Below are positions 5,573-64,000 of a DNA stretch of 64,000 nt, piece after piece. A program made the translations under genes and the position numbers. The DNA is taken from IMG/VR virus record IMGVR_UViG_3300032092_000004, positions 89,131-153,130 of that record; one strand, given 5' to 3'. Below the pieces are notes generated by a model, which saw nothing but the letters and a program-made list of their open reading frames with translations, made no database searches and had not been told where the DNA came from. Position 1 is the stretch's first letter. Every line of letters begins with the position of its first letter. The DNA is from a virus.

Positions 5573-6778
5573 ATGAGAGACTTCATTAAAAATTTCTTAT
5601 TAGAACAAGATGAGAATCTTGTCACACTAACTCCTGATCAATATACAGAAACATTAGAGGATGTTGGAGGTATTGCAGCAAGAGTTGCAAATCTCAAACC
5701 TTATCGTGGTAAGGGTATTGTTATTAATGGTGGTTTAGATCTTAGAAAATTTAAAAACATTGGTCCTTTAACTGGCGTTGTTAGAGTTATGGGACGATTA
5801 GACATATCTAATACGAATATTTCAAATCTTGATGGAACTAAGGTAGATGGGTATGTTAGTAGTTGGGGTTCAACAATGCATACAAATAAATTAAAACAAG
5901 AAAGAAATAAAAAACTTTCAGAATTAGCCGATTATAGAGAAGATGATGAATGGAATATTGAAAATAATGATGATGAATCTGAAAGAACTGAAGCGTTATA
6001 TGAATTCTTAGTTGAAGAAGGTATTCCTACCTTATATGAAGACGACAATGGTGATGAAATAGAAGAAGATAAATATTTTATTTATCCAAATGGTACTGGA
6101 AATCACGGTATTGGAAAACAATACGAATGGTTAGGTGGTGGAACTTTACAACCTGACACATATGATGTTTATACTCAAGACGAGTTAGATGTTGCGGCTA
6201 AAAGATATGTTGAAAGATCGGTTGATGACATGGGTTATGATGCATTCTCAAGTTGGGTTTGGGATCAAGCGATTAATAAAGGAGAGTGGCAAAGTTGGTT
6301 AGATGATTTTTTTGAAGATATAGTTAGAGTTGATCCTGAACATTATGATATAGGACTTGAATTATCTAAAAATCAACAACATCAAGTTAATCAATTAACA
6401 AAAACTATAGAAAATCTAAATAATAGATTAGAAAAAGAGGAATTGTCTGACGAAGAATTCGAAAACATCGAAAGAAAAATTGAAGGTTTAGAAGAGACAA
6501 TAGAAGACATCAAAGAAGATCCACAAGGTGGTTATGATGAAAGTTCTATACAGAATGAAATCAATGATAGAGTTAATGAATATGTTGATGATATTGATGA
6601 GTTTATCAAACATTACGGTTATGAAAGTAGTTTTATAATGGATTTTGTTGATTTAAATGAAGTAACTGACATTGTAGTTAATAGTGATGGGTATGGTAAT
6701 TTATTAAACTCACATGATGGAGAAATGTTTGAAACAAAGGTAAATGACGATTGGTATTTTGTAATGAGAGCTGGTTAG
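5573..6778 (+). CDS. Putative capsid-targeted protein with coiled coil, 401 aa
   Basis: N-terminus MRDFIKNFLLE/QDE is amphipathic and ends in L-L-E, matching the (I/L)xE prohead-protease consensus known from T4. The body has a short leucine-rich-repeat-like stretch (LDISNTNISNLDG, about residues 83-95), an acidic middle, and a coiled coil at about residues 260-320. No enzyme motif seen. By analogy with T4 internal proteins it may be packed in the head and injected (inference). The stop is TAG. Its start is preceded at 4 bases by TATTTATA, as in other genes of this class. Confidence 0.6.
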   Translation: MRDFIKNFLLEQDENLVTLTPDQYTETLEDVGGIAARVANLKPYRGKGIVINGGLDLRKFKNIGPLTGVVRVMGRLDISNTNISNLDGTKVDGYVSSWGSTMHTNKLKQERNKKLSELADYREDDEWNIENNDDESERTEALYEFLVEEGIPTLYEDDNGDEIEEDKYFIYPNGTGNHGIGKQYEWLGGGTLQPDTYDVYTQDELDVAAKRYVERSVDDMGYDAFSSWVWDQAINKGEWQSWLDDFFEDIVRVDPEHYDIGLELSKNQQHQVNQLTKTIENLNNRLEKEELSDEEFENIERKIEGLEETIEDIKEDPQGGYDESSIQNEINDRVNEYVDDIDEFIKHYGYESSFIMDFVDLNEVTDIVVNSDGYGNLLNSHDGEMFETKVNDDWYFVMRAG

Positions 6779-10017: not shown

Positions 10018-10206
10018 ATGAAAAATTATTTAATCAACGAAAAACAACTTAAGAGAATTCTTGAACAAGTTGAGGACGAAGAAAACGATCCTAAAGATGA
10101 GGAAACTAATGATGAAAATGTAAGTAGTGGTTTTTTTGATGATATCACAAAAAAACCTATAGATAGTAGTGATCCTTTAAAGATTTTTTTTGATTCTTTA
10201 AATTAA
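10018..10206 (+). CDS. Small acidic protein with capsid-targeting-like N-terminus, 62 aa
   Basis: Starts MKNYLINEKQLKRILE/Q, with I-L-E at residues 14-16 matching the (I/L)xE cleavage rule. The rest is acidic and short (mature part about 46 residues), like the small T4 internal proteins. No domain recognised. Its 3' end overlaps the convergent DUF192 gene by 9 bases. Confidence 0.6.
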   Translation: MKNYLINEKQLKRILEQVEDEENDPKDEETNDENVSSGFFDDITKKPIDSSDPLKIFFDSLN

Positions 10207-11852: not shown

Positions 11853-12815
11853 ATGAAAAATAAATTTATTTTAACAGAGGAAGAATCTAAAAGAATTCTT
11901 TCTTTACACAAACAAAAAATCCAAGAAGAAAGAGAAAATATAGAAGAATATTCAGATCAAGGTCAGTCAGCAACTAGAATTGGAGGATCATTAGCTGCTG
12001 GCGCTGGAGTAGGTGCTGGTGTAGGTACAATCATTGCACCAGGTGTTGGAACAGTTGTTGGTGCAATTATTGGTGCTGGTGTTGGGGCATTAACAGGTTG
12101 GGCAACAACAGGAGGTGGATATTATGAAAGAGTTGCTAAAGCATTCAAATTTTGTCGTGATAATAGAAAATATATGGGTAAACCTGTAAACTCACCTGAA
12201 AAACTCCAAGACATTGCAGACTTTATAAGATCTGCAGTTACTGGTTTAGGTACTGATGAAGTTTTAATTGCAAAAAATTTAAGAAAATTAAAAACAATTC
12301 CTGATTTTTGTGCTTTAAGTAAAATTTATAATGAAAGATTTACTGAAACTTTATTCGATGCTTTGGACGGTGATATAGATCAAGATAATGAATGGAGAGA
12401 TTATGTTTGGTTACCAATTTCTGAATTGGCAAAAAATACAAAAAAAGTTAGCGAAGATAAGTTAAAAGAAAACGCTAAAAAATGCGGTTGGGGAACTGAC
12501 ATTAATGGTTATAGAAATTCAGGATGGCAATGTCCTAAAGGAGGAAAACCAACACCAAATCCTATTCCTAACCCTAATCCAAACCCTAATCCAAACCCTA
12601 ACCCAAATCCTAATCCAAACCCAAGAAGAAAAAGATATTATTTCAATTACCAAGATGCGTTAAACGCATTGAATAAAAAAGGATGTCCTACCGGAGGTGG
12701 TGGTGAAGAAGGTAAAAAAGAAGATGGTTTTGCCGATGATTGGAGAGTACCTCAAGCAGATCAAAAAGTTGATCCTGTAGTTTCATCTGACGATTTTTCA
12801 AATTGGTCTAAATAA
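11853..12815 (+). CDS. Putative packaged membrane-active protein: Gly-zipper + annexin-like repeat
   Basis: 320 residues. The start at 11853 is chosen because MKNKFILTEEESKRIL matches the targeting-peptide class and follows the promoter motif; an upstream in-frame ATG would extend into the terminator. I-Q-E at residues 23-25 fits the cleavage rule. Next comes a glycine-zipper membrane segment (about residues 48-82; GAGVGAGVGTIIAPGVG), then a stretch like one annexin repeat (GLGTDEVLIAKNL, DFCALSKIYNERF, about residues 130-170), a (PN)n linker and an acidic tail. It could insert in the inner membrane during DNA entry (inference). Confidence 0.6.
   Translation: MKNKFILTEEESKRILSLHKQKIQEERENIEEYSDQGQSATRIGGSLAAGAGVGAGVGTIIAPGVGTVVGAIIGAGVGALTGWATTGGGYYERVAKAFKFCRDNRKYMGKPVNSPEKLQDIADFIRSAVTGLGTDEVLIAKNLRKLKTIPDFCALSKIYNERFTETLFDALDGDIDQDNEWRDYVWLPISELAKNTKKVSEDKLKENAKKCGWGTDINGYRNSGWQCPKGGKPTPNPIPNPNPNPNPNPNPNPNPNPRRKRYYFNYQDALNALNKKGCPTGGGGEEGKKEDGFADDWRVPQADQKVDPVVSSDDFSNWSK
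12559..12626 (+). repeat. (CCNAAY)n-like repeat coding Pro-Asn tract
   Basis: About eleven alternating Pro-Asn codon pairs (CCTAAYCCWAAY words). It encodes a flexible linker and is a likely slippage site. Confidence 0.8.
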
Positions 12816-12831
12816 AAAAAAACAAATAACT

Positions 12832-13056
12832 ATGAGCAAGATTAAATTAACAGAAAGTCAATACAACAAATTAAAAAATAATATTGTTGAATCCGCATTA
12901 ATTACTGAAGCATCGAATACAAGAGAAGAGGTGATGACAGTTCAAAAAGCATTAAATAAATGCTTTAAAGCTGGTTTAGCTGAAGACGGAATTTGTGGAA
13001 AGAATACAAAATCTGCAATTGAGAGATACTTAGGAATTCCGGTTATGGAAGTTTAA
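12832..13056 (+). CDS. Capsid-targeting-like peptide fused to peptidoglycan-binding domain, 74 aa
   Basis: N-terminus MSKIKLTESQYNKLKNNIVE/SALITE/A has two (I/L)xE sites (residues 18-20 and 24-26). The rest is a short PG_binding_1-like module: VMTVQKALNKCF, GLAEDGICGKNTKSAIERY. Such modules bind peptidoglycan. A packaged wall-binding protein could help the tail or DNA cross the periplasm (inference). It follows the Gly-zipper protein by 16 bases. Confidence 0.65.
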   Translation: MSKIKLTESQYNKLKNNIVESALITEASNTREEVMTVQKALNKCFKAGLAEDGICGKNTKSAIERYLGIPVMEV

Positions 13057-13132: not shown

Positions 13133-13552
13133 ATGGAAAAAGTATTATATATCGTTAGAGGAATACCGGGTAGTGGAAAATCCACATTGGCAAAAAGATT
13201 GGTTGGTGAAGATTTTTTGGTTTGCGAAGCCGATAAATATTTTATCAATGAAGAAAATGGTAAATATGAATTCGATATTTCAAAAATAAGAGACGCTCAT
13301 AAATGGTGTCAAAATTTAGTTGAAACTTACATGAGGGATAGTCTAATTAATGACCAGTATTATCGTGAAATTGCGGTATCCAACACATTTACACAGGAAT
13401 GGGAAATGGAACCGTATTTTGAATTGGCTAAAAAATATGGGTATAAAGTATTTTGTGTTGTTGTTGAAAATAGACATGGTGGTAAAAATCAACATGATGT
13501 TCCTGAAGAAAAGATTGAGTTAATGAAAGAAAGATTTGAAATAAAATTATAA
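13133..13552 (+). CDS. P-loop kinase, polynucleotide-kinase-like (AAA_33 type)
   Basis: 139 residues. Walker A GIPGSGKST at residues 10-18, then a lid/substrate region with CEADKYF, VSNTFTQEWEMEPYFELAKKYGY, and RHGGKNQHDVPEEKIELMKERFE, the pattern of the N4BP2/PNK-like P-loop kinases. Such enzymes phosphorylate 5'-OH ends of RNA or DNA. Overlaps the phosphoesterase start by 1 base, so the two are translationally coupled and may act together in end repair (inference). Confidence 0.75.
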   Translation: MEKVLYIVRGIPGSGKSTLAKRLVGEDFLVCEADKYFINEENGKYEFDISKIRDAHKWCQNLVETYMRDSLINDQYYREIAVSNTFTQEWEMEPYFELAKKYGYKVFCVVVENRHGGKNQHDVPEEKIELMKERFEIKL

Positions 13553-14231: not shown

Positions 14232-15479
14232 ATGAGAAATATTGTTATTACCGAAAGTCAATTAAAATTAATTACAGAAGCTTTAGGCGTTCCTGATTAT
14301 ATTTTAGATGCGGCTGAGATGTTATATGATGTTGTTGAAAAAGACATCAAATCAATAGATAGTGTTGAAGATGAATATGAATTCGATGGTGAGATTGAAT
14401 TTGAGTTAGGTGATAAGAAAAAAATCAAAATTGATTCTTATGAATTAAAAGTAGAAATAGAAAAAGTAGAAGGTCACGGAGATGGAGTGATAGACATCAT
14501 CTCAATGGGTATGTCTGGTGGGTTTGGATTTAACAGAGATGTTTATATGAAAGAAACTCAACCATCGACAACTTTGGAATTAACAATAACATTTGCGGTT
14601 GGCGAAAATTGGGAACCTGAACAACTAATTAAAAAAATGGAGGAAGAAAGAGATGAATATGTTGCATCTTTGGCTCATGAAATTAAACACAAATACGACA
14701 AACAATCAAAAAAGTTTGGTTTAATCGGTCCTGATGCTACATATCAAGCAACACAAAGAAGGGGTAATTTTGGAATACCAGTATTAGATAGAGTTTTCTT
14801 TAGGTATATGTATTATATCCACGGTATTGAAAACCTCGTTAGACCCGTTGAGGTTGCATCTTCAATGAGAAGTAAAAACGTTACAAAATCACAATTTTTG
14901 GATTTCTTACAAAACAATAGAGTATTCAGAGAGTTGGTGGAAATTAAAAAATTCACATTTGAGGATTTTATTAATGAGTTAAAAGAAAATGAAGATAGGT
15001 TAGATGCTCTTATTGAACATATAGGTGAAGATCCATCTGAAATGACTTTAGATGAGAAAATTAATAGAGTATTGGAAGTTGCTTACATTGATTTAGTTAA
15101 TAATAGAATGGAGATTTTTGTTATAATGACACAACATCATATGGATGATATGATAAAATTTGGGGGACAACTTGGGATGTTACCGCCAAATTTAGATGAT
15201 GAGGTAAAAAAATTAGAAAAAACAGATGAGATTAGACGGAAGTTTTTATCTTATGTGACGAAATATGAAAAGAACCCAACTAAATTCTTTGAAGATGAAA
15301 TCGAGAACTTTCAATACATTGCAAACAAAATGTTAAAGAAAATATCAAAACTATATTCTATGGCAAAAGACGACGAACAAGTTAGTGAATCAATTCTAAA
15401 TTGGGATCTTCACCAACAAATCATGGAAAAAAAATACGGTACAAGAAAAATAGAAACCGAATACAAGTTTAAGAGATAA
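14232..15479 (+). CDS. Putative packaged zinc metalloprotease (HEIKH) with capsid-targeting-like N-terminus
   Basis: 415 residues. MRNIVITESQLKLITE/A gives I-T-E at residues 14-16 for prohead-protease cleavage. HEIKH at residues 149-153 (SLAHEIKHKYDKQ) is an HExxH zinc-binding helix, followed by a helix-rich C-terminus with a possible third ligand among later Glu/His residues. I infer a protease carried in the head and injected to attack or process host proteins. No signal peptide. Alternatively it acts on the virion itself. Confidence 0.65.
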   Translation: MRNIVITESQLKLITEALGVPDYILDAAEMLYDVVEKDIKSIDSVEDEYEFDGEIEFELGDKKKIKIDSYELKVEIEKVEGHGDGVIDIISMGMSGGFGFNRDVYMKETQPSTTLELTITFAVGENWEPEQLIKKMEEERDEYVASLAHEIKHKYDKQSKKFGLIGPDATYQATQRRGNFGIPVLDRVFFRYMYYIHGIENLVRPVEVASSMRSKNVTKSQFLDFLQNNRVFRELVEIKKFTFEDFINELKENEDRLDALIEHIGEDPSEMTLDEKINRVLEVAYIDLVNNRMEIFVIMTQHHMDDMIKFGGQLGMLPPNLDDEVKKLEKTDEIRRKFLSYVTKYEKNPTKFFEDEIENFQYIANKMLKKISKLYSMAKDDEQVSESILNWDLHQQIMEKKYGTRKIETEYKFKR

Positions 15480-47220: not shown

Positions 47221-47529
47221 ATGAAAATACTAATATCAGAAAAACAAGCCGATAGAATATTCAACGACAAAATTGAATGTGAAAAGTGTGAACACTCGTG
47301 GAAAAAAGAAAAAAATGGTCCACAACCTTTTCTTTGCCACGATTGTGGGTGGGACCAAAAGAAACAAAAGTACGATAAAGAAAACCTATTCAAGTTTTGG
47401 AAAAATAAATTATCCAAAGAACCAATTGACGAAAAATGGTCTGAAAAGTATAAAAGGTCAATAAATTGTAATAATCCAAAAGGGTTTAGCCAGAAGGCTC
47501 ATTGTCAGGGTAGGAAAAAAAGAGATTGA
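47221..47529 (+). CDS. Zinc-ribbon protein with targeting-like N-terminus, 102 aa
   Basis: Starts MKILISEKQADRIFND (type with ISEKQ). A Cys4 zinc ribbon follows: IECEKCEHSW, then FLCHDCGWDQK. The C-terminus NCNNPKGFSQKAHCQGRKK is a Cys/Gly/Lys-rich motif I associate with several large-phage proteins. The longer in-frame reading from 47212 is rejected because the preceding gene ends 2 bases before this ATG. Function unknown; may be packaged. Confidence 0.55.
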   Translation: MKILISEKQADRIFNDKIECEKCEHSWKKEKNGPQPFLCHDCGWDQKKQKYDKENLFKFWKNKLSKEPIDEKWSEKYKRSINCNNPKGFSQKAHCQGRKKRD

Positions 47530-52063: not shown

Positions 52064-52975
52064 ATGAAAGTATCGATTACAGAAGATCAACTCAAAGTTG
52101 TACAATCAAAAGTGATTTATGAACAAATCCTTGACGACCTTGTTTTCAAACTATCTTTAATCACAGAAGATGGTAAGACTAAACCTGATATGGAATGGGA
52201 TTTTGAACCTATCAAAAAAGAAATTGATTTATCCAAGTTATGGGTTAAAACTAAAGAAGATGCTATAAAATATATTGAAAAAGTTAAAGATAAAATTGAA
52301 AATCTTCCTTCTGACTTAAAAAAAAGAATTGTAAAATATATTGCCTATTCCTTATTAGGTTTATTAAGTTTAAAACAAATTGAAAAATATTTAGAACCTC
52401 CATTACAAAGTGCGGTAGAAACTGAAAAAGAATTCATCAAAAAGGTAATACCACCAAGAATAAGAAAATCATCAGAAGGTTTAATTAATCATTTAAAGTA
52501 CGAAGAAGGGTCTATTAGACATAAAGGACAACCAAATTTAGTTGCTTATGATCTTGGTGATGGCGCTTATACCATTGGTTATGGACATGCTATATTTCCT
52601 GATGAACAAGAGGGATTTGATTTTTTACCAAGATACTCAAAGATAGTTCCAGGTAGAACAACAATTACAAAAGAAGATGCCGAAACATTATTGAAAGATG
52701 ATATGAGAGAAGCTGAAAGCATCGTTAATCGAATTTTGGATCAATGGGAAGAAAAAGGAATTAAACCACCAATTACACAAGGAATGTATGATGCAATGGT
52801 CTCTATGTCATTCAATATGGGAAGAGGTATAAGAACTTCAGATTTTATCCAAGCGGTTAAACGAGGTGATTTTGATTTGGCAAGAAAATTAATTTCAACA
52901 ACAAGTGAAAACTTGTTTGATGACTTTCCTGGTCTTGAATCAAGAAGGAAAAAAGAATCGGAAATGTTTATATGA
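52064..52975 (+). CDS. Putative packaged GH24 (T4-like) lysozyme
   Basis: 303 residues. N-terminus MKVSITEDQLKVVQSKVIYE/Q with I-Y-E at 18-20. A helical region with one hydrophobic stretch (IAYSLLGLLSL, about residues 93-103) precedes the lysozyme domain: catalytic Glu in LKYEEGS (about 147-148), Asp in AYDLGD (163), and Thr170 in YTIGYGH, the Glu-Asp-Thr triad of T4-type muramidases. MYDAMVSMSFNMGRG and the C-terminal helix fit the family. It may help DNA entry through the wall from inside the virion. Confidence 0.8.
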   Translation: MKVSITEDQLKVVQSKVIYEQILDDLVFKLSLITEDGKTKPDMEWDFEPIKKEIDLSKLWVKTKEDAIKYIEKVKDKIENLPSDLKKRIVKYIAYSLLGLLSLKQIEKYLEPPLQSAVETEKEFIKKVIPPRIRKSSEGLINHLKYEEGSIRHKGQPNLVAYDLGDGAYTIGYGHAIFPDEQEGFDFLPRYSKIVPGRTTITKEDAETLLKDDMREAESIVNRILDQWEEKGIKPPITQGMYDAMVSMSFNMGRGIRTSDFIQAVKRGDFDLARKLISTTSENLFDDFPGLESRRKKESEMFI

Positions 52976-53637
52976 TGGACAGAGAAAAAATATTAAAACT
53001 ATTCAAAAGGTTTGCTGGTGATGCAATTGATCTTTACGGATTGAAATGTATTCCTGTTGGACTTGGGGAAGAAATAATATCAAAAAGACATAATAAACCT
53101 TATTATCCGATTGAATTTAAAATTAAAAATCCAAATGATGTTTCTTATTTCTATTCAATAGTAGATGAGGAACTTTTAGATATAGTAATGGAGTTTGAAG
53201 AATATGTTGGCCTTAAATTAACTACTAAAGTATTATGGGGTGAACAACCAACATTTTATCTTAACGACAAAACAAAAAACAAAATTCAAAAAGTTTTCGA
53301 CTCTGTAAGAGAAATTAAATTCACCACAGGAACCCCATTTGTTGGGTATAGAAGATATGTAATCAATATAGAATCTGTTGGTTTAAAAAGCAAACATTTT
53401 GATGATGATGTGTATTATATTCAAAACACCGTTGTCCCATTATCAGCAACAAAAAATGGTGAAAATATTGATGTTAATGATGCGATAAATGAATATATCG
53501 ATGAGTTCTTACCACATGTTGAAACATATTATGAAAGTGAAGAATATTATCGAGGTGTTGATCAAGTAATCAGTCAACACCCATTACTTAACGCTGATTA
53601 TGTTGCAACTTATTACGACACCAAGTTTATCCGATAA
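52972..53637 (+). CDS. Unknown protein, 221 aa
   Basis: Not recognised. Acidic alpha/beta protein (YFYSIVDEELLDIVMEFEEY, RYVINIESVGLKS). No signal peptide. It overlaps the lysozyme by 4 bases and the convergent UvrC gene by 11 bases, so it is the last gene of a late unit. Might be packaged or act with the lysozyme, but there is no evidence. Confidence 0.5.
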   Translation: MMDREKILKLFKRFAGDAIDLYGLKCIPVGLGEEIISKRHNKPYYPIEFKIKNPNDVSYFYSIVDEELLDIVMEFEEYVGLKLTTKVLWGEQPTFYLNDKTKNKIQKVFDSVREIKFTTGTPFVGYRRYVINIESVGLKSKHFDDDVYYIQNTVVPLSATKNGENIDVNDAINEYIDEFLPHVETYYESEEYYRGVDQVISQHPLLNADYVATYYDTKFIR

Positions 53638-54901
53638 GGGACTTACTTCTTTTCTTACGGTGAAAAGTAATAACAAATCGGTGAACTTCATTTTGAATCT
53701 CGGCTAACAAAAACCCAAACTCACTTCTTGGAATATCAAAACTTAAGCCATCAATCTTGTGGATTGTAGATGATCTGTGTTTTTCGTCTTTTGAAATGGA
53801 GATCAAGTCAACTCGATTCAATAAACCAAGATCCTCAAATACTTTTTTGGCGACACCCAACTGACCTTTACCACCATCAATAATAACAAGTGAGGGTAAC
53901 TCTTGTTTCTCATTTAAAAGTCTCTTGAATCGACGATTTAATACCTCATCGAAAGAAGCATAGTCATCAGGACCCTCAACAGTTTTGATGTTGAACTTAC
54001 GATAGTTAGACTTATCAGTTTTACCATTCTTGTAACGAACAAGAGCGGACACCTGACAATCACCAGCGGTATGAGAGTTATCAAATGCCTCAATAAGAGT
54101 TGGAACATTCAATAAACCAAATTGTTCTTTGAAAGATCTTGCAATATCGCTATACTTTCGAATACGAAATGACTCAAGTCTTTTCTCCAATAAATCAACA
54201 ACATCCATTTTGTTTTTGAAGTTTTGAGCAAGCTCAAACTCCATTTGATCAGAGTGATACTTCATGTACTTCTTCAAACGATTTCGAACTTTGTCGAACT
54301 GAAATGAAAATACATCTTTCATCTCACTTACAATCTTCAAGTAAGAAAACTTTTGAATAGAAGAAACACAAGGAGCATTACAACGACCAAGATGAAACTC
54401 CAAACAATTCTTGAACTTTTCGTTTTGGATATTCTCTTCAGTCAAGTTGTAAGAACAAGATCTAAGATTGAAAATGTCATGGACCATCTCATAGATCTCA
54501 TAACAAGAGTTGGAACTTGTAGACTCCAAAAGAACTTCACCAGTAAAGTTAGAAGGATTACAAACCAAAAGTCTTGGGAACTCATCTTCACTCAAAGTAA
54601 TAAACCAACGACGAGAACGATCATCTTTTGCTTTGATGTTGTATTTTGGTTTGTGTGATTTGATAAGTTCATCCTCCAGTAACAAAGCCTGACTTTCATC
54701 ATTTGTAGTCATGAACTCAACATCAGTGATCTCATTCACCAAAGACAAAGTCTTCTGATCTTTGTGATTTTTCTGAAAGTAAGACTTCACTCGTTTTGGT
54801 AGATACTTTGACTTACCAACATAGATGATCTGACCCTTCTTGTTTTTGAAAAGGTAACAGCCGCTAGATTGGGGGATATTTGAAAGTTTCTCTGTAATCA
54901 C
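53627..54901 (-). CDS. uvrC: UvrC-like excision nuclease, short form
   Basis: 424 residues, GTG start. N-terminal GIY-YIG domain (SSGCYLFKNKKGQIIYVGKS, LPKRVKSYFQ), a Cys region (CLEFHLGRCNAPC), UvrB-binding-like coiled segment and the RNase H-like C-terminal nuclease (IEAFDNSHTAG, VIIDGGKGQL, SISKDE). Bacterial UvrC is about 600 residues and ends in a helix-hairpin-helix; that end is missing. It would nick DNA beside lesions, perhaps with host UvrAB. A TTTG-N19-TATATTTG promoter lies 4 bases upstream. Confidence 0.88.
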   Translation of the reverse strand: MITEKLSNIPQSSGCYLFKNKKGQIIYVGKSKYLPKRVKSYFQKNHKDQKTLSLVNEITDVEFMTTNDESQALLLEDELIKSHKPKYNIKAKDDRSRRWFITLSEDEFPRLLVCNPSNFTGEVLLESTSSNSCYEIYEMVHDIFNLRSCSYNLTEENIQNEKFKNCLEFHLGRCNAPCVSSIQKFSYLKIVSEMKDVFSFQFDKVRNRLKKYMKYHSDQMEFELAQNFKNKMDVVDLLEKRLESFRIRKYSDIARSFKEQFGLLNVPTLIEAFDNSHTAGDCQVSALVRYKNGKTDKSNYRKFNIKTVEGPDDYASFDEVLNRRFKRLLNEKQELPSLVIIDGGKGQLGVAKKVFEDLGLLNRVDLISISKDEKHRSSTIHKIDGLSFDIPRSEFGFLLAEIQNEVHRFVITFHRKKRSKSLIG

Positions 54902-56524: not shown

Positions 56525-57076
56525 ATGAAACAACTTGTAATTGATCCAGCTCATTCTGACTTGGGATTTAAAATCAGACACTTGATGGTGTCAAACGTAA
56601 AAGGAACATTAACAAATTATTCAGGTGGTATGTCTTATACTACTGAAGATATGAGTGACGCTCAGATTCGTTTTGAGGCTGAAGTTAACTCAATTTCAAC
56701 AGGAAATGGAGACAGAGATGCACACCTTAATGGAGAAGACTTCTTCAACACGGATAGATTCCCTAGAATGTATTTCGAATCAACTCACTTGAATCTTACT
56801 GACGGTAAAATGAAAGGTGAAATGACTATCAAAGACACAACTAAAACTATTGATTTAACTGTTGAGTATAATGGTAAATCAGTTGATCCATGGGGTAACA
56901 CAAAACACGGATTTGAGATCTCAGGAACTATTAACCGTTCAGACTTTGATCTTACTTGGAATGCGGCACTTGAAACAGGTGGTGTATTGTTGAGTGATGA
57001 GGTTAAACTGAATTTGGATGTTCAGATGATGGAATTGGTTGGTGAATTAGAACCACAAACTGAAACAGCAGAATAA
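56525..57076 (+). CDS. YceI family protein
   Basis: 183 residues with YceI features: VIDPAHSDLGFKIRHLMVSN, GTLTNYSGGMSY, VNSISTGNGDRDAHLNGEDF, FPRMYFESTHL, and FEISGTINRSDFDLTWN. YceI folds as a lipocalin-like barrel that binds polyisoprenoid lipids; bacterial ones are usually periplasmic. This copy has no signal peptide, so it is cytoplasmic or packaged. Followed by a strong terminator. Confidence 0.85.
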   Translation: MKQLVIDPAHSDLGFKIRHLMVSNVKGTLTNYSGGMSYTTEDMSDAQIRFEAEVNSISTGNGDRDAHLNGEDFFNTDRFPRMYFESTHLNLTDGKMKGEMTIKDTTKTIDLTVEYNGKSVDPWGNTKHGFEISGTINRSDFDLTWNAALETGGVLLSDEVKLNLDVQMMELVGELEPQTETAE

Positions 57077-57157: not shown

Positions 57158-58111
57158 ATGAAAAATCTTGTTAGATCAATCCTTAATGAAGTTTACCAAC
57201 AACAAAACAAACCTGACTTAATTAAAGAATGTACAATTGCTGCGGTAAGATTGGATGACACCGTAGTTTTAGCAAAAAACAGAGATAGAGGTTACAAGGC
57301 TAGAGTTGAAATTATTCATGAGATTGTGAAAGATGTTGAAATGGTTTATTGGAGAGATATTGATACTGATTGGAGTGAGGGAATGAATGAATTTGGTATT
57401 GGTATTGTAAATTCTAGTTTGATGGTTGCCCAAGATGAGAAAGAAGGTAAAGGGGTTGAAAAAGAAAGAAAGATTGATGATAAAACTAAGGATAAGACCG
57501 AAAAGAAAAGATTTGCCGCTGATGGAGGTAAAATAAGAAAGGCTTTAACTTATAAAACTTTACCTAAAGTAATTAAATCTATAATTTCTTACAGAGGTGA
57601 AGATAAAAAAGATGTGGGACTCAAAGGAGAAACAATAGTCTCAAATAACGAAAATATTTATATAGTTGAGATGACCGCTAAACATTCTCCAATAATTAAA
57701 AAATTAAAAACTGACTCTAAAATTGTTGTAAGAACAAACCATGGAATTTATCAAAAGAGTGCTGGGTATACTCATGGTAGAAAAAGAAAATCTTCTGTAA
57801 CTAGAATGGAATTGGCAAAAAAACACTTAGAGGGTGTTAAAAAAGACATAGATGTGATTGATGCGATGAAAAAGAAATACAAGAAAGATCCATTTTTAAA
57901 TCCATATAGAACAAAGAACATGTATCATATGCAAACAACAGGTCAAATAATGATGAATCTTGACAAAAAACTTGTTGTTGTTAGAATGGATAATGATATG
58001 GGAGAGTTTGTTGGTATCCAAACAAAACTACCAAAAGATTACGAACCAAAAATTAAAATAAGAATAGAGGGTGAAAAAACCCATGATAAAGGCAAAAAAT
58101 TACCAACGTAG
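57158..58111 (+). CDS. Putative packaged Ntn hydrolase with capsid-targeting-like N-terminus
   Basis: 317 residues. MKNLVRSILNE/VYQQQNKPDLIKE/CTIAAVRLDD: (I/L)xE sites at 9-11 and 22-24, the second directly before Cys25. CTIAAVRLDDTVVLAKNRDRG and EGMNEFGIGIVNSS are features of choloylglycine/AAT-type N-terminal nucleophile hydrolases, where Cys must become the first residue. Cleavage by a prohead protease would expose this Cys and activate the enzyme (inference). Substrate unknown; family members cleave amide bonds. Confidence 0.68.
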   Translation: MKNLVRSILNEVYQQQNKPDLIKECTIAAVRLDDTVVLAKNRDRGYKARVEIIHEIVKDVEMVYWRDIDTDWSEGMNEFGIGIVNSSLMVAQDEKEGKGVEKERKIDDKTKDKTEKKRFAADGGKIRKALTYKTLPKVIKSIISYRGEDKKDVGLKGETIVSNNENIYIVEMTAKHSPIIKKLKTDSKIVVRTNHGIYQKSAGYTHGRKRKSSVTRMELAKKHLEGVKKDIDVIDAMKKKYKKDPFLNPYRTKNMYHMQTTGQIMMNLDKKLVVVRMDNDMGEFVGIQTKLPKDYEPKIKIRIEGEKTHDKGKKLPT

Positions 58112-59796
58112 TGAAAAATTTAATTAAAAGAATATTAAAAGAAGAAACAAAATCACTTTTGACAGAAGGTGGTATTCGTGATATCAAGAATCTTGCTAAA
58201 AGATATAAAATGGCTAAGATCTACTTTCACCTTGATTTAGATGGTGTTACAACTGCTTTGGCAATGAAACATTATTTAGAAAGAAATGGTATTAAAGTGG
58301 TTGAGGCCGAACCAATTCAATACGGAGCAAAAGAATTCGCAGTTAAAAAACCTGAAGGCGAAGGTGAAATTATGCCAGTTCTTGTGGATTTTGCTCATGG
58401 TAAACCAATGTTTGTTATTCATACAGATCACCACGATACACAAGCCGGAGTTGAAGGAGATACGTCAACAAGCTTCAAGTCTGCAAGATCAAACGTCGAA
58501 ACAATCTCACAAACTGTATCTCCATCTGAGATCTTTACTCCTGAAGATGTTGAAACAATTTCAATCGTTGACTCCGCTGATTTTGCAAAACACGACATCA
58601 AACCAAGAGACGTTATTAATTACCTATTCCAAATAGATAGAACCAAAGGTTTTAAAGAAAACAAAAGAAAAATGGGTCTTGTTGCTAATAAACTATTATT
58701 GGCATTTAAGAATAAACCTGGTTTCTTAAGTGATATTGTATTAAATGCTCAACCATCTTTACTTAGTATCTTGATGAACATCAAAGATCAGATGCAAAAG
58801 AAAGGATATGCGACTTTAGATAAGTTAGAACAAAATAAAGAAGCCTACATTGAGTCAAGAAAGAAAGAAGGTGCGGTCCAATACTCTGATGGAGTTATTA
58901 GTCAATATGGTTTTGGTTCTACGATGAAACCAGGATCTTATGATCGTTATACACCATTCGAAAATTATCCTGAAGCTGATTTCTTAGTAACAGGAATGCA
59001 TTTAGGGATGGTTCAAGCATCTTGTAACCCATACAAGAAAGATAGAGCACTTAAAGGTGTTAACTTAGGTGAAGTTAAAGATGAGGTTTTAAATAAAATG
59101 TCATCAGAATTAGAAAATATAAAAGTAACTTTTGGTGATCTTAAAAGAGTTGGTGAACAAGAGGCTGAGTTTGGTTCTGTTGGATTCACATTGAAAGACT
59201 TCATGGCAATTTATGGTAATGCTCCTTCATATAAACTTGATGGTAGTAAAAACACTTTAGAAATTATTGGAAACATTTCTCAAACCTTATATAGAAAACT
59301 AAGTGATAGACAAAGAGATGTGTTAGATAAAATAACAGTCAATGGTTTAGATGTGATTAAAGCAAACTCAGGTGGTCACAAATGTATTACTAATATTTCA
59401 GGAATAAATTTCTTATTGAGAGATAGAAAAGCTCGAACCAACACTGAGGTTGAAACCATTTCTGCTGAACTACAACCAATTGCCAGTTATGAAGGAAGTA
59501 ATGACTTTGTTAAAGATATCAAAAGTAAGTTATTAAGATTTGGTAGTATTTCTGACAAACAAAAAGATGCCGCAATGAGACAAATTAATAAAGAAGGTAC
59601 TTGGTCTAAAGGTGAAGTTGAGAGACCTAAAAAAACATTTGTTGATTTGGTCAAACAAATACAAGAAGAATTTGTTTCAATTTTAAAAGATAAAATAAAA
59701 TTGTCAGGCGATGAAAGATCCGAACCTGAATTAGAAATAGAACTTGAAGAGCAATTGAGAAGAATTACCAAAAAACAATTATCTTCAAGAATCTAA
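58111..59796 (+). CDS. Putative packaged DHH-family phosphoesterase
   Basis: 561 residues, GTG start directly at the end of the previous gene. N-terminus MKNLIKRILKE/ETKS. FHLDLDGVTTALAMKHYL (motif with D42 and D44), VDFAHGKP and IHTDHHDTQ (D106-H107-H108) are DHH motifs; ANSGGHKCITNISG near residue 420 matches the GGGH motif of DHHA1. RecJ- and NrnA-type enzymes cut single-stranded DNA, nanoRNA or cyclic dinucleotides. A packaged DHH enzyme could remove a cyclic-nucleotide alarm signal or host DNA (hypothesis). Confidence 0.75.
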   Translation: MKNLIKRILKEETKSLLTEGGIRDIKNLAKRYKMAKIYFHLDLDGVTTALAMKHYLERNGIKVVEAEPIQYGAKEFAVKKPEGEGEIMPVLVDFAHGKPMFVIHTDHHDTQAGVEGDTSTSFKSARSNVETISQTVSPSEIFTPEDVETISIVDSADFAKHDIKPRDVINYLFQIDRTKGFKENKRKMGLVANKLLLAFKNKPGFLSDIVLNAQPSLLSILMNIKDQMQKKGYATLDKLEQNKEAYIESRKKEGAVQYSDGVISQYGFGSTMKPGSYDRYTPFENYPEADFLVTGMHLGMVQASCNPYKKDRALKGVNLGEVKDEVLNKMSSELENIKVTFGDLKRVGEQEAEFGSVGFTLKDFMAIYGNAPSYKLDGSKNTLEIIGNISQTLYRKLSDRQRDVLDKITVNGLDVIKANSGGHKCITNISGINFLLRDRKARTNTEVETISAELQPIASYEGSNDFVKDIKSKLLRFGSISDKQKDAAMRQINKEGTWSKGEVERPKKTFVDLVKQIQEEFVSILKDKIKLSGDERSEPELEIELEEQLRRITKKQLSSRI

Positions 59797-59798
59797 TT

Positions 59799-60080
59799 CT
59801 AACCCATACTCTTTAGGACCATCTCCAAAGTGTAGATGGAATCTTTATCTTGTTTAGTCTTAACCTGTTTAGACTTCAGATATTCCAAACTTTGTAATAC
59901 CTCTTCCTTTTTAGATTTAGGATTTTGAGTAGAGTTATTACTCTGAGTTTTTTTAACCACTGAAAATGATTTTTTTTGAGGAACTGATTCATTACCTAAA
60001 AATTCTCTAACTATTTCTAAAGACTTGTCAGGGTTCCAAGTGAACATATTTACCAAAATGTAAGCGAATATCTTTTTCAT
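59799..60080 (-). CDS. Unknown basic protein, 93 aa
   Basis: Not recognised. N-terminal MKKIFAYILVNMFTWNPDKS, then a Ser/Lys/Gln-rich linker and a helical C-terminus (EEVLQSLEYLKSKQ). It runs against the surrounding plus-strand operon and has its own TATCTTTG promoter, so it is probably under different control. Confidence 0.5.
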   Translation of the reverse strand: MKKIFAYILVNMFTWNPDKSLEIVREFLGNESVPQKKSFSVVKKTQSNNSTQNPKSKKEEVLQSLEYLKSKQVKTKQDKDSIYTLEMVLKSMG

Positions 60081-60084
60081 ACTA

Positions 60085-60092
60085 CAAAGATA
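60085..60092 (-). promoter_or_regulatory. Bacteroidota-type promoter (-7 TATCTTTG), 4 bases before ATG
   Basis: Minus-strand TATCTTTG, TAGT, ATG of the 93-residue gene. It is 15 bases from the plus-strand TATTTATA motif, so the two promoter types face away from each other here. Confidence 0.65.
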
Positions 60093-60106
60093 ATGAAAAT
60101 AAATGA

Positions 60107-60114
60107 TATTTATA
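60107..60114 (+). promoter_or_regulatory. TATTTATA motif 5 bases before a start codon
   Basis: GATATTTATAAAAAT then ATG of the GIY-YIG-like gene. Confidence 0.55.
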
Positions 60115-60119
60115 AAAAT

Positions 60120-61526
60120 ATGAAAAATCTGATTAGAAACATTTTGAAAGAAAAGGTGTCAACAAAATCAAAACAATTGATTTACGAGACCGAGAGAGAG
60201 TTAGATGAGAGGGGTAGACCAAGATTGTATTCTGATGAGGAAATTTTAAGTCGTGCTTGTCAATATACAAATCAAAGAGATTTTGAAAAAGGAAATGATA
60301 AAAATTATTTTTATTTAGCTAAGAATAGAAAATTATTACCCACAATTAGATTACAATGTAATTACGTACCACTTGGAAATGCTTACAGTAGGATGTTATA
60401 TATGTATATATGGGAAAAAAATGTAAGTGCTGTTTATTTTGGACTCACTTGTGATGAAGAGAGAAGATATGAAGAACATACACGTTTAGAACAACAAATT
60501 TTAAATAATGCAGACGTTAAACCAAGTTGTAAAGTCGGATCCAATTCTGCGGTTAAAGAGTTTATTAAAAAAAATGGGATTCATGATAGATATGTAATGA
60601 TTTCTGATGGTTATATTGATGCAGTTCAAGCGGCACTTGCCGAAAGGTGTTTAATTGACCACTTCAAAAATGATGATGAGTGGAAAGGTAAGATAGAAGT
60701 TGTTAACAAAAGTAAGGGTGGTGAATTGGGAGGAAGATGTCCCGCGAATGCAAGACGAATGGCCCAAGATGTAAAATTAATTATGGATAATCAAATAAAT
60801 ACACCTGAGGAATTTCAATTAAATTATCCTGTTGAATATGAATATTGGTCAAGAGACAAAAACAGACAAAGAATAATAAATCAAGGGTTGAAAAAAAGAT
60901 TTTTTTCAGATGCCCCATATTCGAAAGAAGAAATACTGAATATAGTTTCAAATTACGACAATTTGGATGAATTTAAAAATGAAAACCGAAGAGCCTTTCT
61001 TTCTGCGAAGAGAAATAAAATGATAGAAATTCTGTACCCTGAGGATAATGTTTACTTCAACCCAAACACAAATAAAACTTATGAATCATTGATTAGTTTA
61101 AATAAAGATTTAAATAAAAATTTCAAAGATTTATATAATGATTTTTTAAGAGGTCAAGGCGAATTGGATTATGGAATTATAACAAAGAAAAAAAACGAAA
61201 TTAACGAAAATATTTTAAGAAGAATTATAAAAGAAGAAACCGAAGAGATTAACCAAAAGGTCATGAACTTCCTTCTGAGAAGACATGAGATCAATGAGAT
61301 TAATATTGATGATCAAATTAAATTTAAAGAAGTATACTTCAAGGTAGGAGATGACTATTATGGGATATCAATGTGGGATAGTAAAAAAAGACAAGTAAGA
61401 CTTATTTTGAATATGTTAGAAGAAAACAATGTTATTGAACCAATTGATAACTTCTCAAACGAAAACGATCCATACAGACAAAAAGTTGTTAGAACAATTA
61501 AAAAGTTTTTATCTGAAATAATGTAA
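60120..61526 (+). CDS. Putative packaged GIY-YIG-like protein with an internal second targeting peptide
   Basis: 468 residues from ATG 60120. N-terminus MKNLIRNILKE/KVST. VSAVYFGLTCDEERRYEEH (about 102-120) resembles GIY-YIG (Tyr, then GLT, Arg) and AALAERCLIDHFKND may supply the Glu of that fold. At residues 363-373 the sequence ENILRRIIKEE repeats the targeting-peptide pattern in the middle of the chain, followed by an about 100-residue domain. That looks like a fusion of two packaged proteins, possibly cut in two by the prohead protease (inference). Confidence 0.62.
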   Translation: MKNLIRNILKEKVSTKSKQLIYETERELDERGRPRLYSDEEILSRACQYTNQRDFEKGNDKNYFYLAKNRKLLPTIRLQCNYVPLGNAYSRMLYMYIWEKNVSAVYFGLTCDEERRYEEHTRLEQQILNNADVKPSCKVGSNSAVKEFIKKNGIHDRYVMISDGYIDAVQAALAERCLIDHFKNDDEWKGKIEVVNKSKGGELGGRCPANARRMAQDVKLIMDNQINTPEEFQLNYPVEYEYWSRDKNRQRIINQGLKKRFFSDAPYSKEEILNIVSNYDNLDEFKNENRRAFLSAKRNKMIEILYPEDNVYFNPNTNKTYESLISLNKDLNKNFKDLYNDFLRGQGELDYGIITKKKNEINENILRRIIKEETEEINQKVMNFLLRRHEINEINIDDQIKFKEVYFKVGDDYYGISMWDSKKRQVRLILNMLEENNVIEPIDNFSNENDPYRQKVVRTIKKFLSEIM

Positions 61527-61963
61527 TGAAAGAGTTGATTAGACACATATTGAAAGAAGAAACTGAGGTTTCAGATCCAAATACAAAAGGAATAGATCTT
61601 GCAATTAAGTTTCTTAAAAAATCATATCCTTACATTATTGGGTGGGAAATTAATGATGAGCGTACATATACAATATACCTTAATATTATCTGTGATATTG
61701 AAAAACTAAAAGAGTTTTATAATAGTGATTTAAAGAATTATTATTTAAGACACAAAGATGATATATATAAAGATATTTTAGCATATCCACATTCAGTTTT
61801 AAAAATAAGTGAAACTATGGATCCAGATGAAAAGTACAAAGAGTATAGTGAAATGAAACAGGAATTAAACGATATATATCAAATGCTTCCTGAACATTTA
61901 ATTATAAATGATAGACATAACGAACCCAAAGAATTAGATCCTGACAAATTTATATATAGATGA
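61526..61963 (+). CDS. Targeting-peptide protein, unknown domain, 145 aa
   Basis: MKELIRHILKE/ETEV then an alpha/beta body (PYIIGWEINDERTYTIYLNI, KYKEYSEMKQELNDIYQM). No family recognised. Overlaps both neighbours by 1-4 bases, so translated in a chain. Mature protein about 134 residues after predicted cleavage. Confidence 0.6.
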   Translation: MKELIRHILKEETEVSDPNTKGIDLAIKFLKKSYPYIIGWEINDERTYTIYLNIICDIEKLKEFYNSDLKNYYLRHKDDIYKDILAYPHSVLKISETMDPDEKYKEYSEMKQELNDIYQMLPEHLIINDRHNEPKELDPDKFIYR

Positions 61964-62394
61964 AAAAGTTGATTAAACATATATTAAAAGAAGACGAGGG
62001 AAACAATCTTGAACAAAGATTTAGAAACTCAATGCAAAAACTCCAATATATTTTTGAAAGTCAAGTTTCATCTCATATTGACTCTGTCGAAATAAGTGAA
62101 ATTGAATTTGACCCTAAATATACTGAAATCCAAGCAAAACTTACGGTTAAATCATATTATGAAGACCATGATTTTGGTTCACTTGCTAAACACATTGATA
62201 GATTAGAAGATGAAGTTTATAAAATTCAAGGAAAATACACATTCACAGAAAACGGTGGTTTGATTAAAAGAGGTCCCGACCATGATTGGATTATGAGTTG
62301 TATACCAATTGGTATGAAATGGCAAGCTGGTGGTGAAGAATCATTTCTGTTAATTTTAGAATTTTGGATAAGACAAGAGGAATACGATGCGTGA
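61960..62394 (+). CDS. Targeting-peptide protein, unknown domain, 144 aa
   Basis: MKKLIKHILKE/DEGN then a beta-rich body (YTEIQAKLTVKSYYEDHDFG, GKYTFTENGGLIKRGPDHDW). No family recognised. Overlaps the next start by one base. Confidence 0.6.
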   Translation: MKKLIKHILKEDEGNNLEQRFRNSMQKLQYIFESQVSSHIDSVEISEIEFDPKYTEIQAKLTVKSYYEDHDFGSLAKHIDRLEDEVYKIQGKYTFTENGGLIKRGPDHDWIMSCIPIGMKWQAGGEESFLLILEFWIRQEEYDA

Positions 62395-63026
62395 TGAGAA
62401 ATTTAATTAAATTGATATTAGAAGATGAGGTTAGTAGAAAATATGCTAAACCTACACCAAAATTAGAACAAGTTGTTTATAGATGGTTAAACAACTATTT
62501 TGATGGTGTGCAAATGTATTATAAAAAATCTTATGAATCAACACATAGTTTTGATTTTTGTAAAAACGGAAGAGAAATATTGGATGTTGTTTTATATTTT
62601 GGTAATGATGATGACGACAATAAAAAAACTGAAGAAATGAGTTTTAATAGGGGTTTAATGAGAGTCCCAAAAAATGTATTTGATGATTTAACCACAGATC
62701 TTCCTATGAGAGTAAGTTATTTAAGATACCTTCTTGAAGAATGGTTCGATGACACTTACTTAGGTGAAATTCAAAAAAAGATGGGTAGAAATGATATTTA
62801 CATTTCCGAACTTTATATAACTAATTACGACGGTGATATTTGTTTTCCACCGATAACAAAACCTGATGATGTAACTGAGGAGGAAATGATAGAAGATATT
62901 CTTAAAGCGGGAAAATATAAAATGAAGGATATATTGTGGTGGGAAGAGAGATCGCCAGGATGGATTGAACAAACTTATTTAGAACAACTTAATGGTGCTG
63001 AATACAGAAGATTAAAAGGACAATGA
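62394..63026 (+). CDS. Targeting-peptide protein, paralogue of 63023
   Basis: 210 residues from ATG 62394 (one-base overlap with the stop before it). MRNLIKLILE/DEVS then KYAKPTPKLEQVVYRWLNNYFDG, RVSYLRYLLEEWFDDTYLG, KMGRNDIYISE and CFPPITKPDDV, all shared with the gene at 63023. Unknown function; no catalytic motif seen. Confidence 0.62.
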   Translation: MRNLIKLILEDEVSRKYAKPTPKLEQVVYRWLNNYFDGVQMYYKKSYESTHSFDFCKNGREILDVVLYFGNDDDDNKKTEEMSFNRGLMRVPKNVFDDLTTDLPMRVSYLRYLLEEWFDDTYLGEIQKKMGRNDIYISELYITNYDGDICFPPITKPDDVTEEEMIEDILKAGKYKMKDILWWEERSPGWIEQTYLEQLNGAEYRRLKGQ

Positions 63027-63664
63027 GAGAACTGATTAGACATATCTTAAAAGAAGAGGTTAATAAAAAATACAAAAAACCTACACCAAAGGTAGAACAA
63101 CTTGTTTATAGTTGGTTAAACAAGTATTTTGATGGGGCTACAATGTATCATGACAAATCGTGGGAAACAAGACATGATTTTGAATGGTGTAATTATGGAA
63201 AAGAAATAATGAGTTTTATATTATTTTTTGAAGATAATAATGATGTTTATGACGATAAAAGAAAAACTGAAGAAAGAGATTTTGGTTCAGGTTCAATTTA
63301 TATCCCAAATGATATATTTAAAGAGTTGATGTCCGATATTCCTGTAAGAGTAAGTTACTTAAAATACCTTTTTGAAGAATGGTTTGACGACACTTATTTA
63401 GGCGAAATTCAAAGTAAAATGGGTAGAAATGACATCTATATTTCTGAATTTAATATAAATGATAAAGATGCTCAAACTTGTGTTCCACCAATAACAAAAT
63501 CTGAAGATGTAAGTCAAGATGATATCATAGAACTTGTTCTTAAAACCACACTGTTTAAAAGAGATGATTTATTAAGACGAGAAGAAGAGGAACCAGGGTT
63601 TATAGAGAAAATTTATTTAAATAAACTTCGTGCTGCAGAAATAGACAGATTAAGAGAAGAGTAA
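63023..63664 (+). CDS. Targeting-peptide protein, paralogue of 62394
   Basis: 213 residues. MRELIRHILKE/EVNKKYKKPTPKVEQLVYSW and RVSYLKYLFEEWFDDTYLG, KMGRNDIYISE, PPITKSEDV: tandem duplicate of the previous gene with about half of the residues identical by eye. Both keep the targeting peptide, so the duplicated product is still directed to the head (inference). Confidence 0.62.
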   Translation: MRELIRHILKEEVNKKYKKPTPKVEQLVYSWLNKYFDGATMYHDKSWETRHDFEWCNYGKEIMSFILFFEDNNDVYDDKRKTEERDFGSGSIYIPNDIFKELMSDIPVRVSYLKYLFEEWFDDTYLGEIQSKMGRNDIYISEFNINDKDAQTCVPPITKSEDVSQDDIIELVLKTTLFKRDDLLRREEEEPGFIEKIYLNKLRAAEIDRLREE

Positions 63665-64000
63665 TGAGAGAACTAATCAGACATATCTTGAAAGAAAATA
63701 GACTCCAACAAGAGTTGAAACAAGTTATCAAAGATGGTAATATTTTTGACGCTGCGGACTTGGTTGGTGGAATCCAACCACTCAAAAGAATATTCAAAGA
63801 CGATCCTGAAATGAGTTCTTTATTTGATAAACTAACAGGGAGGATTATTTTTGATTATTATGTGAATAAAGAACATATAGAATTTCCTTTAGATTATGAA
63901 ATAATTGGTAGAAAGAGTAATAATCATAAGACTAATCATTGGCCTGAAATAAACGTTCTTTATGATGAAAATAAATTAACACCCGAAGAAAATGATACTT
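63664..64000 (+). CDS. Targeting-peptide protein (cut by window end)
   Basis: Starts MRELIRHILKE/NRLQ, with a peptide identical to the previous gene over the first 11 residues, then QQELKQVIKDGNIFDAADLV and continues past the window edge. The overlap TAATG with the upstream stop shows the array continues to the right. No domain recognised in the visible 112 residues. Confidence 0.6.
   Translation, partial: MRELIRHILKENRLQQELKQVIKDGNIFDAADLVGGIQPLKRIFKDDPEMSSLFDKLTGRIIFDYYVNKEHIEFPLDYEIIGRKSNNHKTNHWPEINVLYDENKLTPEENDT

Follow-up and report, generated by a model that had tools for sequence, protein, structure and literature searches.

Why should a set of neighbouring phage genes begin with nearly the same peptide? 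The question is raised by the end of a 64,000-nucleotide stretch of viral DNA (the window), which spans bases 89,131–153,130 and forms the final 64 kb of a linear virus record (G000) of 153,130 bases. A preliminary description of the window had proposed that these shared starts are capsid-targeting peptides of the kind removed in T4 by the prohead protease gp21, and that the proteins behind them form an arsenal packed into the head and injected. The contig belongs to a T4-like myovirus: its first gene encodes the tail sheath, and PHROGs matches include an ssDNA-binding protein, UvsX, baseplate wedge and hub proteins, SbcC and a sigma factor. The Bacteroidota are probably the host group of this large T4-like virus. 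The genomes compared were G000 (172 proteins), G001 (291,867 bases, 332 proteins) and G002 (290,710 bases, 324 proteins), with simple longest-ATG gene calls throughout.

The leader array and its bodies

All eight of the near-identical N-terminal peptides first described are confirmed in the sequence, with the consensus M(K/R)xL(I/V)(R/K)xIL(K/N/E)(E/D). The array comprises the following features:

57158–58111, plus strand: Ntn-hydrolase-like gene; class A leader MKNLVRSILNE, then linker and body
58111–59796, plus strand: DHH-family phosphoesterase gene; class A leader MKNLIKRILKEE, GTG start
59799–60080, minus strand: small leaderless gene that interrupts the array
60120–61526, plus strand: GIY-YIG-like gene; class A leader MKNLIRNILKEK
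61526–61963, plus strand: body without assigned function; class A leader MKELIRHILKEE, class A in 16 of 16 family members
61960–62394, plus strand: body without assigned function; class A leader MKKLIKHILKED, class A in 13 of 14 family members
62394–63026, plus strand: body without assigned function; class A leader MRNLIKLILEDE, paralogue of gene 63023
63023–63664, plus strand: body without assigned function; class A leader MRELIRHILKEE, paralogue of gene 62394
63664–64000, plus strand: class A leader MRELIRHILKEN; body open at the contig end, homologues of up to 1,009 amino acids

Several particulars of the preliminary description require amendment. The eight plus-strand genes do carry leaders, but they do not stand strictly in a row, as the leaderless minus-strand gene at 59799–60080 breaks the run; a comparable small opposite-strand gene (249914–250186) likewise breaks the array of G001, in which about ten leader genes follow one another. 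The bodies, said to differ completely, do so for the most part, with the exception of the paralogues 62394 and 63023. The array was also said to run past the window edge; its last gene is indeed open there, but the edge coincides with the end of the 153,130-base contig.

The enzymatic identities proposed for the first two bodies are supported. An AF2 model of the mature form of the gene 57158 product has a pTM of 0.81, and every top Foldseek match is an Ntn hydrolase (best E 8e-8), including CV2077, isopenicillin N acyltransferase, bile salt hydrolases, penicillin V acylase and HslV. The gene 58111 product matches RecJ/DHH proteins in fold, and PF01368 is found in 12 of 12 of its homologues (best 2.9e-5), the window protein itself falling below the curated cut-off. 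A sequence search of solved structures with Ntn and DHH profiles returned nothing useful, whereas fold comparison did match. Pfam searches of the window proteins gave weak matches only, and the GIY-YIG-like assignment of gene 60120 is retained as a weak one, PF01541 being matched in 4 of 6 homologues (best E 0.0014). This protein contains an internal leader-like stretch, NILRRIIKEE, at about 61209–61238; the profile search found an internal leader in a homologue as well, and since the body that follows the stretch stands alone behind a leader of its own in G001 (gene 246310), the 60120 protein may be a polyprotein. Most leader-protein bodies carry no known domain or recognisable function, and the idea of an arsenal therefore rests on a few enzymes.

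Recurrence, exchange and the junction rule

The N-termini were aligned genome-wide, as the preliminary description had asked, and the leader likeness was found to recur beyond the array. Among N-terminal 18-mers, 42 gene pairs in G000 and 281 in G001 score ≥35, as against 3 and 4, respectively, for internal 18-mers, an excess far too large for the likeness to be due to chance. This comparison was unsupervised and thus provides a signal independent of the profile counts, which are descriptive because the profiles of five leader classes were made from the same genomes. Strict N-terminal profile matches number 21 of 172 proteins in G000, 61 of 332 in G001 and 36 of 324 in G002, compared with none of 1,737 internal control segments; beyond the first 40 residues there are 5 matches in 443,783 residues, 4 of which fall in proteins that already carry an N-terminal leader. 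Altogether, 423 leader proteins occur among 2,268 proteins, and their bodies make up 172 families or singletons. Where two leaders have the same residue, the codon differs in 78 of 188 comparisons, which places the similarity at the level of the peptide; nucleotide-level repeats and translation signals were rejected as its source on this ground.

The leader set first described is but one class of at least five that occur in the phage group. Class A is exemplified by MKNLIRKILKE. Class B (consensus MKIIITExQYxxLxE) opens four consecutive genes at G000 83307–85226 and others in the window. Classes C (MKKxIRLTESDLxRIVRRVINE) and D (MNLQENIxRIxxMMG) are contributed by G001 and G002, while G000 also has class E leaders and single variants. 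Searches of GenBank phages by tblastn with the leaders alone, queries that are too short, returned no match, and the strings RLTESDL and MKIIITE were not found in the literature text searched. Leader genes elsewhere in the window are listed below (↓ marks a junction here and throughout):

5573–6778, plus strand: gene with leader MRDFIKNFLLEQ; homologues combine this body with leaders of class A, B or C
10018–10206, plus strand: class B-like leader MKNYLINEKQLKRILEQ
11853–12815, plus strand: class E-like leader MKNKFILTEEESKRILSLHK
12832–13056, plus strand: class B/C-like leader MSKIKLTESQYNKLKNNIVESALITE↓A
14232–15479, plus strand: class B leader MRNIVITESQLKLITE↓A
47221–47529, plus strand: class B leader MKILISEKQADRIFND
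52064–52975, plus strand: class B leader MKVSITEDQLKVVQSK on a lysozyme-like protein, the body assigned by eye

The leaders are interchangeable, in that near-identical bodies bear different leaders, 7 to about 25 residues in length, in different phages. The DHH body (SGIRDIKxLAKRY; 80 loci) is found behind leaders of class A or B and also behind very short ones, MRKLLNE and MKKGILVE among them. A gene near the capsid gene has its leader swapped between G001 and G002 (MKNLDRLIKQVLRED↓KESSRYMFFSN as against MNREIKITESQLTSLIRKVVNES↓HKESSRYMFFSN), and an invariant E↓AEYQGRKVQLGK is preceded by variable propeptides. With leaders swapping on conserved bodies and unrelated bodies sharing leaders, the original view of the shared start as a sorting signal rather than a mark of homology is supported.

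In T4, gp21 cleaves after L/I-X-E (PMC9026906), and the claim that the shared peptide ends in such a site holds at the leader/body junctions. Among 38 distinct DHH leaders, P1 is E and P3 is L or I in all 38, and the residue after the junction is S in 36 and G in 2; in the Ntn-hydrolase family, P1 is E in 17 of 17 distinct leaders (two of them read by eye), with I, L or M at P3. More broadly, [LI]xE occurs within residues 6–30 in 90% of 143 leader families, compared with 25% for internal windows taken from these proteins and 29% among 503 proteins that lack a leader; some leader-like starts have no clear LxE end. The rule stands, but placement of the cut at the first (I/L)xE does not always do so: in several proteins another (I/L)xE follows a few residues on, and body conservation marks it as the likely true junction. 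For gene 58111 the predicted cut is MKNLIKRILKEETKSLLTE↓GGIRD, with the body beginning at 58168.

Head protease, proposed enzyme activation and alternative readings

The search for a gp21-like protease, also suggested at the outset, was positive in seven large relatives and negative in the contig itself. An S77 (gp21-type) protease scores above the cut-off in G001, G002 and G003 (E 5e-26 to 1e-23), with 88.5 bits against a curated cut-off of 27 and a phrog_207 E of 8e-43 in G001; four more large relatives also have one. The profile search of the G000 contig found neither the PF03420 protease nor a capsid gene, the contig being a fragment without the head cluster; in a comparison of seven records, exactly those three that have no capsid gene also gave no protease match. 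In G001 and G002 the protease shares a cluster with the genes for the portal, the capsid and an acidic scaffold-like protein, as it does in T4. In the capsid precursors the propeptide runs to about residue 60 and terminates in LINE↓A or LLNE↓S, the same place and form as FLTE↓A of T4 gp23, and a leader gene adjoining the capsid gene has the leader MIERTIKNILKE↓A with the junction ILKE↓ATSTSGSRGSYV. An isolate that grows on Flavobacterium sp. LMO8, Flavobacterium phage vB_FspM_immuto_2-6A (NC_055915), combines a gp21-type protease and a capsid site QIVSE↓A with leader sets of its own, e.g., MENFDLKKFLVENKLT..LLKE↓ in four copies. The paper on Baltic Flavobacterium phages contains no mass spectrometry (PMC7077304), and no virion proteomics for these phages was found in the literature.

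The T4-type capsid-targeting peptide and gp21-like protease originally proposed are supported by the junction rule, by the swapping of leaders, by the protease found in relatives together with a matching capsid site, by leader genes adjoining that of the capsid protein, and by an orthologous body that bears a near-T4 signal. We consider it highly probable that the shared starts are cleavable capsid-targeting propeptides, whose proteins are packed into the head, cut by the gp21-type protease and delivered with the DNA; judged by its sequences, the leader system very likely works like the T4 capsid-targeting one. Leader proteins would be made during head assembly, and the N-terminal amphipathic leader would bind the prohead core. 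As the prohead matures, the gp21-type protease would cut after (L/I)-x-E and the leader would be lost, and the mature protein would remain in the head until delivered with the DNA. Many unrelated enzymes and other proteins would thereby draw on a limited repertoire of interchangeable leaders. The 7-mer most enriched ahead of genes, TATTTAT (230 occurrences versus 39 expected from mononucleotide shuffles), would suit late expression: TATTTAT or ATTTATA lies in front of 48% of leader genes, compared with 25% of the remaining genes (p = 4e-7), an enrichment that is not significant in G002, while the Bacteroidota-like TAnnTTTG precedes 3% and 9%, respectively.

For the enzyme encoded by gene 57158, the predicted cut would have a further consequence. 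Its leader and a variable linker are followed by E↓CTIAAV...NRD, the predicted cut (...DLIKE↓CTIAAV) falls after E24, directly before Cys25 (codon 57230–57232), and the Cys at this position is invariant in the family. Ntn hydrolases require their nucleophile at the N-terminus; the cut by the head protease would therefore expose the catalytic Cys25 and seemingly activate the enzyme, and capsid maturation, if this is true, doubles as enzyme activation. A prohead protease joined with an N-terminal nucleophile was not found in the literature searched. The main rival explanation is that the Cys is freed by self-cleavage. Autoprocessing is known for many Ntn hydrolases, and a precursor structure of isopenicillin N acyltransferase (2x1c) ranks with the model's best matches, whereas the gp21 rule precedes the Cys in 17 of 17 leaders that differ in length and class; self-cleavage is thus a serious possibility, albeit on the whole an unlikely one.

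Other alternatives concern the fate of the leader proteins at large. They may bear cleavable head propeptides and yet serve mainly as components of the core or inner-body scaffold, or stay in the head, rather than be injected effectors. Several leader genes do lie within the head cluster, and T4 IPIII influences head assembly (PMC9026906), but a DHH phosphoesterase and an Ntn hydrolase would be odd scaffolds, and most leader genes lie at a distance from the head cluster and differ from phage to phage, which makes this reading improbable. Still harder to sustain is the proposal that the leader docks its protein to some other machine or compartment of the infected cell, its LxE being incidental: an amphipathic helix could bind many partners, but P3 L/I and P1 E are the only residues constant across leader swaps, the capsid protein site obeys the same rule, and an orthologue bears a near-T4 leader. 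Tandem duplication with domain shuffling, or a conserved translation start, with the peptide itself functionless, would account for the tandem arrays and the paralogues 62394 and 63023, but is scarcely credible given the differing codons, the end rule shared by unrelated leader classes and the scatter of leader genes over the genome.

Returning to capsid targeting, we lean, by a modest degree, towards a general protein-loading system in which a few exchangeable leaders bring several dozen proteins into each virion and the maturation protease activates at least one Ntn zymogen in the head. A simple sequence rule would predict dozens of targeted proteins per genome in a large group of uncultivated T4-like and huge phages, sequence alone would reveal which proteins such a phage delivers, and hundreds of orphan genes would be tied to the first minutes of infection. 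New leader sequences would also be on offer for loading cargo into phage heads.

Relation to known systems

The starts of three T4 proteins (NC_000866) provide the closest reference: IPIII MKTYQEFIAE↓A, gp24 MAKINELLRE↓S and gp22 MLKEQLIAE↓A, with arrows set by the published L/I-X-E rule. Two huge phages, LR745206 (634 kb) and LR756502 (642 kb), each with a distant gp21 relative, have the DHH body behind MISKYNQFINE and MLRKYGQFINE, respectively. These leaders come very close to the T4 IPIII signal, including positions 4, 7, 8 and 10; in T4, residues 4 and 7 serve targeting and residues 8 and 10 processing (PMC9026906). As the huge phages put a T4-like signal on the DHH body, a body that bears a class A leader in the window bears a T4-like signal elsewhere.

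With T4 IPI–IPIII and Alt the leader proteins share a short N-terminal propeptide (7–19 residues), the L/I-X-E cut site, an S77 protease and a T4-type capsid. In contrast to the handful of such proteins in T4, each of two near-300-kb genomes here has 36–61 strict matches, with at least five leader classes that are interchangeable on bodies, and none of the bodies was recognised as a relative of the T4 internal proteins. The gp24 propeptide, in its length and LLRE↓S end, is near class A MKNLIRKILKE, but gp24 is a shell protein, whereas class A leaders occur on many non-shell proteins. A known T4 trick would thus be widened about ten-fold, with dozens of unrelated proteins bearing leaders that almost certainly load them into the head and are then removed by its protease; what is new is the scale and the number of interchangeable leader dialects, along with an apparent coupling to enzyme activation.

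Further parallels are more partial. In the phiKZ-like phages SPN3US and 201phi2-1, many head proteins are likewise cut after glutamate by a gp21 relative, but at an A/S-X-E motif and with propeptides that are mostly long and seldom short. In P1, the N-terminal 30 residues of DarB suffice to take a reporter into the head, but the Dar N-termini are without a consensus found (PMC9024508). Finally, the gene 57158 product resembles bile salt hydrolase, penicillin V acylase and isopenicillin N acyltransferase in its predicted fold and in the Cys that opens the first strand, and differs from bile salt hydrolase-type Ntn hydrolases in its precursor, which carries a leader that putatively directs it to the head as well as an (I/L)xE↓C junction.

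Upstream sequences and the host

The most enriched 7-mer immediately 5′ of start codons in the window and its relatives is, by a wide margin, TATTTAT, which occurs 230 times against 39 expected from mononucleotide shuffles. It frequently lies within 10 bases of the ATG, a closeness that suggests that the late mRNAs may be very short or leaderless. Motifs resembling TATCTTTG stand a few bases 5′ of the ATG of the window genes at 13133, 15928, 17268, and 23597, among others. Because these motifs resemble Bacteroidota promoters (TAnnTTTG), they point to a probable Bacteroidota host for this virus.

Genes preceding the array and domains of the DHH homologues

Two window genes before the array of leader-tagged genes were assigned by eye:

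53627-54901, minus strand: UvrC-like N-terminal (GIY-YIG) nuclease, 424 aa, GTG start
56525-57076: YceI-like protein, shortly upstream of the array

Among the 12 DHH homologues in alignment A2, a SET domain (PF00856) was matched in two (best E 1e-12) and a SAF domain in two.

Leaders and prohead protease in other phages

Many genes of the huge phages LR745206 and LR756502 carry an additional leader dialect, MK(H/Y)(L/I)K.(Y/F)..F.E, present on 16 of 84 genes versus 1 of 57 internal MK/MR sites in two 31-kb stretches of these phages (L119, L120). In the relative G015 (162,180 b), a profile search found the S77 match of the prohead protease gene (L162 55-1902) interrupted by ~390 residues, which begin with CHTGDVDILT and end with NHTYYVRSNGKCHWTGN, followed by S; the gene appears to contain an intein.

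In two other relatives, a leader gene adjoins the capsid gene:

G002, L104 15328-16281: capsid-adjacent leader gene
G001, L096 10229-10948: capsid-adjacent leader gene

This gene bears a second leader-like stretch at its C-terminal end (NEVRITESHLVLLIKNILKEL in G002). That C-terminus is reminiscent of T4 Alt, where C-terminal processing occurs.
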